NCBI RefSeq assembly: GCF_036241575.1
Contig: NZ_CP108455.1
Span: forward strand, 2,370,501-2,434,500
DNA: 64,000 nucleotides
From: Streptomyces sp. NBC_01267
Lineage (GTDB): Bacteria > Actinomycetota > Actinomycetes > Streptomycetales > Streptomycetaceae
Reading direction: 5' to 3'
Shown here: piece after piece, positions 25,634-29,903 of the stretch
How positions within the stretch are numbered: the first letter of the stretch is position 1
Layout of the letters: every line of letters begins with the position of its first letter
The notes under the pieces: generated by a model
The model's database searches: none
The model's input: the letters and a program-made list of their open reading frames with translations, nothing else
Told to the model about the DNA's origin: nothing
Program-made: the position numbers and the translations under genes

Positions 25634-28549
25634 CTACGCGGGCACGATGTTCACCAGCTTCGGCGCCCGCACGATCACCTTGCGGATCCCCGCCTCACCC
25701 AGCGCCGCGACGACGGCCGGGTCGGCCAGCGCCAGCTTCTCCAGGTCCGCGTCCGTGATCGACGGCGAGATCTCCAGGCGCGCCTTGACCTTGCCCTTGA
25801 TCTGCACGACGCAGGTCACGGTCTCGTCCACCACGTACGCCGGGTCGGCGGCCGGGAAGTCCTGGTGGACCACCGAATCGCTGTGCCCCAGCTTGTGCCA
25901 CAGCTCCTCGGCGATGTGCGGTGCCAGCGGCGCGACCAGCAGCACCAGCTGCTCGGCCACCGTGCGCGGTACGGCGCCGCCCGCCTTGGTCAGGAAGTTG
26001 TTCAGCTCGGTGATCTTGGCGATGGCGGTGTTGAAGCGCAACCCGGCCAGGTCCTGGCCGACCCCGTCGATCGCCTTGTGCAGCGCGCGCAGCGTGTCCT
26101 CGCCGGCCTCGGCGTCGGAGACGGTGACCTCACCGGTCTCCTCGTCGACGACATTGCGCCACAGCCGCTGCAGCAGCCGGTACTGTCCGACCACCGCACG
26201 GGTGTCCCACGGCCGTGAGACGTCCAGCGGGCCCATCGCCATCTCGTACAGCCGCAGCGTGTCCGCGCCGTACTCGGCGCAGATCTCGTCCGGAGTGACG
26301 GCGTTCTTCAGGGACTTGCCCATCTTGCCCAGGACCCGGGTGACCTTCTCGCCCGCGTACCAGAAGCCGCCGTCCCGCTCCTCGACCTCGGCGGCCGGAA
26401 CGGCGATGCCGCGGCTGTCACGGTAGACGAAAGCCTGGATCATGCCCTGGTTGTACAGCTTGTGGAACGGCTCGACCGAGGAGATGTGCCCCAGGTCGAA
26501 CAGGACCTTCGACCAGAACCGCGCGTACAGCAGGTGCAGTACGGCGTGCTCGGCGCCGCCGACGTACAGGTCCACACCGCCGTGCGGCATGCCTTCGCGC
26601 GGCCCCATCCAGTACTGCTCGATGGTGGGGTCGACCAGCTTCTCGCTGTTGTGCGGGTCCAGGTAGCGCAGCTCGTACCAGCAGGAACCGGCCCAGTTGG
26701 GCATGGTGTTGGTCTCGCGCCGGTACTTCTTGACGCCGTCCCCGCGGCCCAGGTCCAGCTCGACGTCGACCCAGTCCTCGTTGCGGGACAGCGGGGTCTC
26801 CGGCGAGGTGTCGGCGTCGTCCGGGTCGAAGGTGCGCGGCGAGTAGTCCTCGACCTCGGGCAGCTCCAGCGGCAGCATCGACTCGGGCAGCGAGTGGGCG
26901 ATGCCGTCCTCGTCGTAAACGATCGGGAAGGGCTCGCCCCAGTAGCGCTGGCGGCTGAACAGCCAGTCGCGCAGCCGGAAGTTGACCGTGCCCTCGCCGA
27001 TACCGCGCGCGGTCAGCCACTCGGTGATCCTGGCCTTGGCCTCGACGACGCCCAGACCGTCCAGGGAGATGTCGGTGTCGGCGGAGTTCACCAGCTTCGC
27101 GTCGTGCGCCACGAAGGCGTCGTCCCAGGCCGAGGTGTCCGTACCACGGCCGTCGGACGGCTCCACGACACAGCGCATCGGCAGTTCGAAGGCGCGCGCG
27201 AAGGCGAAGTCGCGGCTGTCGTGCGCGGGGACGGCCATGATCGCGCCGGTGCCGTACCCCATCAGCACGTAGTCGGCGATGAAGACGGGCACCGGCTCGC
27301 CGCTGACCGGGTTGACGGCGTACGCGCCGGTGAAGACGCCGGTCTTCTCCTTGGCGTCGGCCTGGCGCTCGACGTCGGACTTCGAAGCGGCGAAGGCGCG
27401 GTACCGGGCAACAGCCTCGGCCGGGGTCGCGTGGCCGCCGGTCCACACCTCGTGCGTGCCCTCGGGCCAGGCGTCGGGGACGATCGACCGCTCGCCGGAG
27501 ATCAGCTCGTGCTCGGGCGCCAGCACCATGTACGTGGCACCGAAGAGCGTGTCCTGGCGGGTGGTGAACACCGTGATCCGCTCGGAGCCGGAGCCCACCG
27601 CGAAGTCCACCCGGGCGCCCTCGGAACGGCCGATCCAGTTCCGCTGCTGCAGCTTGATCGCTTCGGGCCAGTCCAGCGCGTCCAGGTCGGCCAGCAGCCG
27701 GTCCGCGTACGCGGTGATCCGCATGTTCCACTGGCGCAGCTTCGCCTTGAAGACGGGGAAGTTGCCGCGCTCGGAACGGCCGTCCGCGGTCACCTCCTCG
27801 TTCGCCAGTACGGTGCCCAGGCCGGGGCACCAGTTGACGGGGGCGTCCGACGCGTACGCCAGGCGGTACTCGCCCAGCAGGTTCGCGCGCCCCTCCGCGT
27901 CCAGTTCGCTCCACGCGCGCGGGCCGGGCACCGTGCGCTCACCGCTCTCGAACTGGGCGATCAGCTCGGCGATCGGGCGCGCCCGCTCCGCGTCCCGGTC
28001 GTACCAGGAGTTGAAGATCTGGACGAAGATCCACTGCGTCCACTTGTAGTACTCGGGGTCGATCGTGGCGAACGACCGGCGGTTGTCGTGGCCCAGCCCC
28101 AGCCTGCGCAGCTGGGATTTCATGTTCTCCATGTTGGCCTCGGTCGAGGCCCGCGGGTGGGTGCCGGTCTGCACGGCGAACTGCTCGGCCGGCAGCCCGA
28201 AGGCGTCGAAGCCCAGGGTGTGCAGGACGTTGTGCCCGGTCATGCGCTGGTGCCTGGCGTAGACGTCCGTGGCGATGTAGCCCAGCGGGTGGCCGACGTG
28301 CAGCCCGGTACCCGAGGGGTACGGGAACATGTCCATGACGAACTTCTTGGGCCGGGCCGCCAGGACCGGGTCGTCCGCCAGGTCACCGGTCGGGTTCGGC
28401 GCCTCGTACGTGCCGTCGGCGTCCCAGAAGTCCTGCCAGCGTGCCTCGATGTCAGCGGCCATGGCAGCCGTGTAACGGTGCGCTGCGGTCACCTCGGAAG
28501 GGACTCCTCCCGCGCTTTCGGCAGCGGAGGAAGAATTCGTCTCGCTCAT
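25634..28549 (-). CDS. leuS: Leucine--tRNA ligase
   Basis: 971 residues from ATG 28549 (M-S-E-T-N-S-S-S). Class I synthetase charging tRNA-Leu. The HIGH-type motif is '[10 protein letters not shown]' near residue 85, the CP1 editing domain is in the middle ('[12 protein letters not shown]' region), and the KMSKS-type motif is 'K-M-G-K-S-L-K-N' near residue 745. The C-terminal anticodon-binding and Leu-specific domains are intact. Expression appears to be controlled by a leucine attenuator (see 28619-28739). The open frame upstream of the ATG overlaps that leader and is not coding for LeuS. Confidence 0.97.
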
Positions 28550-28618: not shown

Positions 28619-28642
28619 AAAAAGCCCCTCGCACAGGAGGGG
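28619..28642 (-). terminator. Intrinsic terminator in the leuS leader (attenuator)
   Basis: Stem CCCCTC / GAGGGG (28637-28642 with 28625-28630) and a 6-nt loop, followed on the minus strand by C and five T (28619-28623). It lies between the leader peptide stop and the leuS start, so full transcription of leuS requires read-through. Confidence 0.8.
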
Positions 28643-28644
28643 AC

Positions 28645-28698
28645 GCCGCGCTGATGCCGACCGGGGGACTTCATCGGTCGGGACTGATTCAGCGCGGC
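28645..28698 (-). promoter_or_regulatory. Leader RNA hairpin overlapping the leader-peptide stop
   Basis: Perfect 10-bp arms GCCGCGCTGA (28689-28698) and TCAGCGCGGC (28645-28654) on the minus strand, with an inner stem CCGACC / GGTCGG. The 5' arm includes the last codons and stop of the leader peptide, so ribosome position would decide whether it forms. A competing 8-bp pairing, 28665-28672 with 28621-28628, could break the terminator. Confidence 0.65.
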
Positions 28699-28727
28699 TC
28701 GCTAAGCAGAAGGCGTACGGCACGCAT
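28689..28727 (-). CDS. Leucine leader peptide of leuS (12 aa)
   Basis: The frame ATG...TGA encodes [12 protein letters not shown]. The three successive Leu codons are CTT, CTG, CTT, of which CTT is rare in streptomycetes, so translation would be sensitive to charged tRNA-Leu. A TACCCT -10 element ends 6 bp before the ATG, implying a leaderless message starting at or next to the A of the ATG. The peptide is followed by two hairpins and an intrinsic terminator before leuS, the layout of a trp-type attenuator. It is inferred from sequence only. Confidence 0.75.
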
Positions 28728-28733
28728 GGCGTC

Positions 28734-28762
28734 AGGGTACCGCAGGCCCCTCACACCGCGCA
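28734..28762 (-). promoter_or_regulatory. Candidate promoter of the leuS leader
   Basis: TACCCT (minus strand of 28734-28739) is a good -10 element for the streptomycete housekeeping sigma. A weak TGCGCG (28757-28762) sits 17 bp upstream as -35. The start would fall on the leader-peptide ATG. Confidence 0.5.
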
Positions 28763-28912: not shown

Positions 28913-28985
28913 TGGAGCTAAGGAGAATTGAACTCCTGACCTCCTGCATGCCATGCAGGCGCTCTACCAACTGAGCTATAGCCCC
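28913..28985 (-). tRNA. tRNA-Ala (GGC), copy 1
   Basis: 73 nt. On the minus strand the acceptor stem GGGGCTA pairs with TAGCTCC, the D arm contains AGTTGGTAGAGC, the anticodon loop ATGGCAT reads GGC, and the T arm has GGAGTTCAATTCTCC with the GTTCAA-type loop. CCA is not encoded (the gene is followed by CAG). Identical to the copy at 29831-29903. Confidence 0.97.
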
Positions 28986-29830: not shown

Positions 29831-29903
29831 TGGAGCTAAGGAGAATTGAACTCCTGACCTCCTGCATGCCATGCAGGCGCTCTACCAACTGAGCTATAGC
29901 CCC
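29831..29903 (-). tRNA. tRNA-Ala (GGC), copy 2
   Basis: 73 nt, identical base for base to the copy at 28913-28985, anticodon GGC. CCA is not encoded. The 846 bp between the copies hold the two Cys-rich micro-protein genes. Confidence 0.97.

Follow-up and report, generated by a model that had tools for sequence, protein, structure and literature searches.

Is the short, leucine-rich reading frame in front of leuS in Streptomyces sp. NBC_01267 the sensing part of a ribosome-mediated attenuator, and if so, how could a ribosome on that frame act on the terminator behind it? Here, we addressed this by comparing the leuS leader within a 64,000-nt stretch of this genome (the window) with published systems and with its copies in other genomes, and by modeling its folding with a ribosome at defined positions.

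The leuS leader and its published counterparts

An earlier note on this DNA had described a TACCCT element, an ATG, the codons CTT-CTG-CTT, a hairpin (P1) over the leader stop codon and a terminator with a T5 tract before leuS, and all of these parts are present on the minus strand (Table 1). P1 is a perfect 10-bp helix; its 5′ arm begins 8 nt downstream of the position at which the final Leu codon starts. Between positions 28400 and 29000, there are two terminator-like sites, including the leuS terminator, compared with 0.3 ± 0.6 in shuffled sequences. The folded leader had a z score of −2.15, a moderate signal only, with 6 of 200 shuffles folding equally well. Upstream of the leuS promoter lie two minus-strand tRNA genes with the same Rfam score (28913-28985 and 29831-29903), and a GC-rich inverted repeat at about 28898-28866, between the nearer tRNA gene and leuS, is perhaps the terminator of that tRNA.

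Table 1. Parts of the leuS leader element in the window, and the cimA leaders of class genomes
Feature	Position or locus	Strand	Remark
−10-like element, TACCCT	28739-28734	minus	6 nt before leader ATG
Leader ORF, 12 codons	28727-28689	minus	ATG 28727, TGA 28691-28689; probably without 5′ UTR
Regulatory Leu codons, CTT-CTG-CTT	28712-28704	minus	inside leader ORF
P1 5′ arm, GCCGCGCTGA (GCCGCGCUGA)	28698-28689	minus	overlaps leader stop codon
P1 3′ arm, TCAGCGCGGC (UCAGCGCGGC)	28654-28645	minus	directly adjoins terminator
Inner 7-bp hairpin, CCGACCG/CGGUCGG	28681-28675/28663-28657	minus	enclosed by P1
Intrinsic terminator, CCCCUC-CUGUGC-GAGGGG	28642-28625	minus	followed by C and U5 (T5 28623-28619)
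Weak candidate antiterminator, GCGCGG with terminator loop CUGUGC	28651-28646 with 28636-28631	minus	putative pairing
leuS, leucine–tRNA ligase, the controlled gene	25634-28549	minus	ATG 28549; TIGR00396 leuS_bact, 889 bits
cimA leaders, class genomes	L312, L316, L319, L320, L325, L329, L330, L333, L334, L335, L336		

Classical attenuators of leuS were predicted in 2005 in S. coelicolor and S. avermitilis (PMC1262725), and an RNA-seq study of 2021 reported leuL2 upstream of leuS in S. lividans as a leaderless frame with a hairpin and a uridine stretch (PMC8079986). According to the description of leuL2 in strain TK24, it precedes the same gene, encodes an identical 12-residue peptide, is leaderless and has a terminator with a U tract (PMC8079986). 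Peptide, gene and terminator are found alike in the window; for leaderlessness, the −10 spacing was tested here, and the mapped start is that given for S. lividans (PMC8079986). In the features compared with the published descriptions (gene, peptide, leaderlessness and terminator), no difference was seen (PMC1262725, PMC8079986). The attenuator in the window is thus an already known system, which the earlier note recognized correctly while not knowing it as one described in streptomycetes; it has been described there, with the identical peptide (PMC1262725, PMC8079986). Its reading as an attenuator is well supported by our comparison and agrees with the published prediction and RNA-seq data (PMC1262725, PMC8079986). 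The additions to the known system that emerge from sequence comparison are its spread across orders, the two LeuS lineages behind it and a fixed distance between the CTT codon and P1. In the open-access literature, no description of the spread or of the two lineages was found, a result that does not establish their absence from print.

Conservation within Streptomyces

The earlier note had proposed aligning leuS upstream regions from many Streptomyces genomes, and in the best 80 of 552 matches, taken as the named leuS loci (79 labelled Streptomyces and one [Kitasatospora] papulosa), a leader with three consecutive Leu codons was present in all 80. The codons were CTT-CTG-CTT in 77 loci, CTC-CTG-CTT in two and CTT-CTG-CTC in one. 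The leader DNA was matched in 389 of 392 Streptomyces genomes. A chance origin of the element is excluded because the leader is conserved to this extent. A second DNA match in the genome of the window itself (G000:C1:2470390-2470427) was rejected as a chance similarity, on the opposite strand of an ORF that by eye looks aminopeptidase-like.

Among the three genomes without a match, G001 is 79% complete and gave only a 37% match, and G045 and G297 (100% and 99% complete) had no covariance-model match below E = 0.07. The best LeuS proteins of G297 (locus L384) and G045 (L385) belong to a third type that is 41% identical to the LeuS of the window (46% over the matched N-terminal part); they are 92% identical to each other and fall outside the two clades, A and B, described below. 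This third type might be a replaced or drug-tolerant synthetase. The DNA upstream of the gene is also alike in L384 and L385.

Spread across the class

The window and 65 distinct copies from the 80 named loci were aligned (A1, 66 rows), and the covariance model derived from this alignment (R1) gave a match in all 200 genomes sampled from the family, representing 17 of 17 genera. In the order sample, it matched 197 of 197 genomes, including 15 of 15 from two other families. The class sample gave matches in 105 of 296 genomes, 28 of which are Streptomyces, leaving 77 of 268 others with 78 places. From these 78 places, 60 loci were taken, and a LeuS-like protein was found downstream at 56 by tblastn; of the remaining four, L267 is truncated where its contig ends, and no such protein was seen at L274, L282 or L283.

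A second model (R2) was built from 100 copies (A2; 99 distinct): 2 come from Streptomyces, 44 from other members of the family and order, and 54, L267 and L274 among them, from the class. R2 matched 120 of the 268 class genomes (84 at E <= 1e-10), which is not a count of leuS leaders, many of the weaker matches being leuA, leuC, cimA or ilvB leaders. In a phylum sample of about 225 genomes outside the class, R2 matches occurred in six: G1007 has a strong one (1.4e-14) with LeuS downstream, that of G976 stands before leuA, and that of G929 stands before a gene that is ilvB-like by eye. In 20 R2-negative class genomes, a crude scan for upstream ORFs (uORFs) at the best LeuS place revealed no three-Leu leader, with the restriction that absence is not established for L364, L376, L382 and L383, in which the scan overlooked the LeuS motif or read it wrongly. 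One R2-negative locus, L379, has the uORF MRPIRIELLV with two Leu. By sequence, copies of the leuS attenuator thus occur far more widely than in Streptomyces and extend into other orders of the class. The element, whose covariance model finds copies across orders, is a candidate for a curated RNA family.

Two LeuS lineages behind the leader

The proteins at the 56 class loci were of two types, recognized by identity and motif: 27 of type A, with LeuS at least 60% identical to that of Streptomyces, and 29 of type B, at 32-46%. NCBIfam ranked leuS_bact first for three additional proteins, two of type B and one of type A. A tree was built from 14 proteins (six A, five B, E. coli and the two odd Streptomyces proteins), and in it A and B each formed one clade with support of 100/99 or better. 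Identities were 37-44% between the types and 62-79% within them. Gene order was compared by protein clusters in ten stretches and the window, with ten proteins confirmed by Pfam. degV followed by comEA-/comEC-like genes stood after leuS in four of six type A stretches (the window, L349, L350 and L355) and in three of five type B stretches (L352, L353 and L358); such an arrangement was not seen in L351, L354, L356 and L357. One genome, G852 (stretches L354 and L355), has both LeuS types, each with a leader of its own (L229 and L261).

The data fit two histories and do not decide between them: the enzyme was replaced while the attenuator stayed in place, or attenuator and gene moved together. 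A broader reading, plausible yet held here only tentatively, would be that one ancient, class-wide regulatory RNA outlived its enzyme: it would stand before two LeuS lineages, in part within a shared leuS-degV-comEA-comEC locus, and would read Leu-tRNA through a near-invariant, rare CTT codon 8 nt before P1, with no conserved trp-style antiterminator.

Structure, codons and spacing

Within A1, P1 hardly varies, and seven of its ten pairs never change. In A2, 16 of 23 pairs showed changes on both sides (five of ten in P1, six of six in the inner hairpin where present and five of seven in the terminator). Compensatory cells numbered 152, whereas shuffles gave 41 and slid versions 10-20, in an alignment whose fitting to the structure favors this count. 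P1 was paired in 98.9% of A2 cells, and replacements of whole arms were visible by eye (e.g., GCCGCACCGG/CCGGTGCGGC in L243). In the columns of the inner hairpin, over half of the divergent copies have gaps. Conservation of the stems, on which the reading as an attenuator had been made to depend, is therefore borne out, with both P1 and the terminator supported by compensatory changes among the aligned copies. The primary sequence is also strongly conserved, including a common terminator loop, CUGNGC.

Leaders could be parsed in 96 of the 100 A2 copies (L213, L258, L266 and L278 were left out). The −10 element ended 6 nt before the start codon in all 66 rows of A1. In 95 of the 96 parsed leaders, the distance from TANNNT to the start codon (ATG in 69 and GTG in 27) was 6 or 7 nt. 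The leaderless reading is well supported by this spacing in the relatives and agrees with the RNA-seq data given for S. lividans (PMC8079986).

The last Leu codon was CTT in 93 of the parsed leaders and CTC in three. CTT is otherwise rare: four long frames of the window together have 179 Leu codons, of which 4 are CTT, and none of the 77 in leuS is CTT. Measured from the first base of the last Leu codon, the GCCG with which P1 starts lay at a distance of 8 nt in 93 of the 96 leaders. As for the exceptions, L259 has GCTG at this place, L274 (the locus with no LeuS found) is one nucleotide off, and L250 has a CTT followed one codon later by the CTC that closes the Leu run. In 18 leaders, a further GCCG is present one register earlier, with an apparent distance of 4 nt. 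The stop codon followed the last Leu codon after 5 codons in 79 leaders, after 2 in 10 and after 6-10 in 7. Because the stop moves while the Leu-to-P1 distance stays, it is the sensing Leu codon, not the stop, that is fixed relative to P1.

Related leaders of other genes

Forty further R2 matches were assigned to downstream genes, ten of the proteins by NCBIfam and the rest by eye from translations. The ten comprised two CimA (best family TIGR00977, as truncated proteins below the cut-off), two LeuA, one LeuC, one acetolactate synthase, three LeuS and one without a family. The leaders of cimA, encoding citramalate synthase, contain uORFs with Ile runs (e.g., MTFCLIIP, MTVRQIIF and MPSQVLIIVRRAG), and a P1-like hairpin and a terminator-like repeat stand upstream of the gene; among the cimA loci of Table 1, L329 and L333 were identified by NCBIfam and the others by eye. 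Three leuC leaders (L323 by NCBIfam; L315 and L337 by eye) have Leu runs and P1-like hairpins, and leuA leaders also carry Leu runs. The identity of the codons thus follows the pathway, which lends indirect support to codon-specific sensing in the leuS leader. Among the papers that a literature search for cimA attenuators returned, none dealt with such leaders, judging by title and abstract.

R2, although trained on leuS leaders, also picks up those of leuA. The LEU element of actinobacterial leuA shares a Leu-run uORF with the leuS element; it is described as a pseudoknot in which the Leu codons base pair with the leuA Shine-Dalgarno sequence (PMC1262725). The leuA leader of S. lividans is described without a typical terminator, unlike the leuS element, which has one (PMC8079986). 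Published mutations in the ilvB and leuA leaders of S. coelicolor, as cited in PMC1262725, did not behave as classical attenuation, a point against the attenuator reading of the leuS leader.

Ribosome modeling and the search for an antiterminator

The trp, thr and leu attenuators of E. coli resemble the leuS element in having an intrinsic terminator and a leader peptide that contains cognate codons. Another trait in common is a protector-like hairpin toward the end of the ORF, which is P1 in the leuS element. Unlike these three, the leuS element has a leaderless ORF and no comparable antiterminator was found, and it regulates a synthetase gene, as in pheST.

With a modeled ribosome on the first Leu codon, P1 was intact; moving the ribosome to the last Leu codon removed about half of it (mean P1, 0.61 in the 66 sequences of A1 and 0.49 in 83 of A2), and it was gone at the stop. 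The half loss at the last Leu codon fits sensing at that codon. In the E. coli trp, leu and thr controls, the 5′ arm of the terminator was sequestered to 0.62-1.0 on the regulatory codons and to 0.00-0.02 at the stop. For the leuS element, the corresponding values at the first Leu, last Leu and stop codons were 0.13, 0.15 and 0.38 in A1 (66 sequences) and 0.07, 0.25 and 0.31 in A2 (83 of 100 parsed). A strong trp-like antiterminator conserved in the relatives was therefore not found in A1 or A2, with the E. coli controls positive in the same script. Consequently, the leader and the terminator bear out the pheST-like layout that the earlier note had proposed, but a switch of that kind is not demonstrated.

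The equilibrium stability of the terminator was high in all ribosome states (mean, 0.84-0.87; 157 of 166 sequences). Stability as an argument against attenuation was dropped, since the E. coli controls behave alike, with 0.97-1.0 in every state.

The earlier note had also mentioned, without giving its sequence, a pairing that could oppose the terminator, and one is present in the window: AAGUCCCC with GGGGCUU, which lowers P(terminator) to 0.04 with the modeled ribosome on the stop codon. It is nearly private to this species and was rejected as a general antiterminator; by eye, it occurs only in the window and the near-identical L001 among the 66 rows of A1. P(terminator) fell below 0.5 with the ribosome on the stop in 6 of 157 parsed sequences.

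The only recurrent antiterminator candidate was the P1 3′ arm with the terminator loop. In isolation, it reached at least 3 expected pairs in 92% of 13 distinct A1 segments and 71% of 77 distinct A2 segments, and it beat all 40 letter-shuffled loop sets (3.44 ± 0.10). It showed no covariation between species, the value being 3.85 with a species' own loop and 4.00 ± 0.10 with loops permuted among species. In the full leader, at least 3 expected pairs were reached in 2 of 66 (A1) and 14 of 83 (A2) sequences with the ribosome on the last Leu codon, and in 19 of 66 and 36 of 83 with the ribosome at the stop. This candidate is thus commoner at the stop than at the last Leu codon, the reverse of what a leucine switch needs, which speaks against it. 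Pairing of the Leu-codon run with GAGGGG was also seen by eye; it is partly wobble and weaker in Streptomyces.

Proposed mechanism and alternatives

We consider it likely, from the comparison of sequences, that the leuS leader is a ribosome-mediated transcription attenuator sensing leucyl-tRNA. With enough Leu-tRNA, the ribosome would run off the leader, P1 would re-form, and the terminator would stop most transcripts. When Leu-tRNA is short, the ribosome would stall with CTT in the A site, and its front edge would cover the terminator-proximal half of the P1 5′ arm. The freed, GC-rich 3′ arm of P1 may then interfere with the terminator, possibly by pairing with the terminator loop; this is the least certain step. 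Disturbance of the terminator would allow RNA polymerase to read into leuS. The antitermination step itself is an inference, the models of the leuS leader having shown no switch downstream of P1.

Attenuation could also operate through another switch, an alternative that we regard as possible and on the whole rather doubtful. P1, abutting the terminator, would be needed for termination through stacking or pausing, and a stalled ribosome would unzip P1 with no antiterminator helix being formed. The two hairpins adjoin each other, are both conserved and can coexist, the search for a conserved strong antiterminator was negative, and the fixed Leu-to-P1 distance fits direct unzipping; however, the terminator alone is predicted to be stable without P1.

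Less can be said for a constitutive premature terminator with an incidental Leu-rich ORF and leuS expressed at a fixed level of read-through. Such a scenario would agree with the models, in which no codon-dependent change of the terminator is predicted, but the conservation across orders of the Leu run, the rare CTT and the Leu-to-P1 spacing, together with the pathway-specific codons of the sister leaders, makes it improbable. That the leader binds a ligand, a tRNA or a protein (as a T-box-like, riboswitch or LEU-element-like RNA) instead of sensing translation would account for the unusually strong primary-sequence conservation, including the loop CUGNGC, but is very improbable, given that conservation covers the ORF, its start and its Leu codons and does not extend to the stop or the P1 loop, which vary, that only two tRNAs in the whole window reach the gathering score in Rfam 15, with no family matching the element (28619-28739), and that no T-box covariance model matches at the gathering threshold in the window.

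Significance

The attenuator itself being published, the finding as given is ordinary, and it is the wider form that would matter. Our data suggest that the leuS leader probably switches leuS on when charged leucine tRNA runs short, and the fixed distance between CTT and P1 provides a precise and cheap handle on how leaderless attenuators sense tRNA charging. If the broader reading is true, the presence of one attenuator across orders and ahead of two alternative LeuS enzymes would show clearly that regulation can survive replacement of the enzyme.
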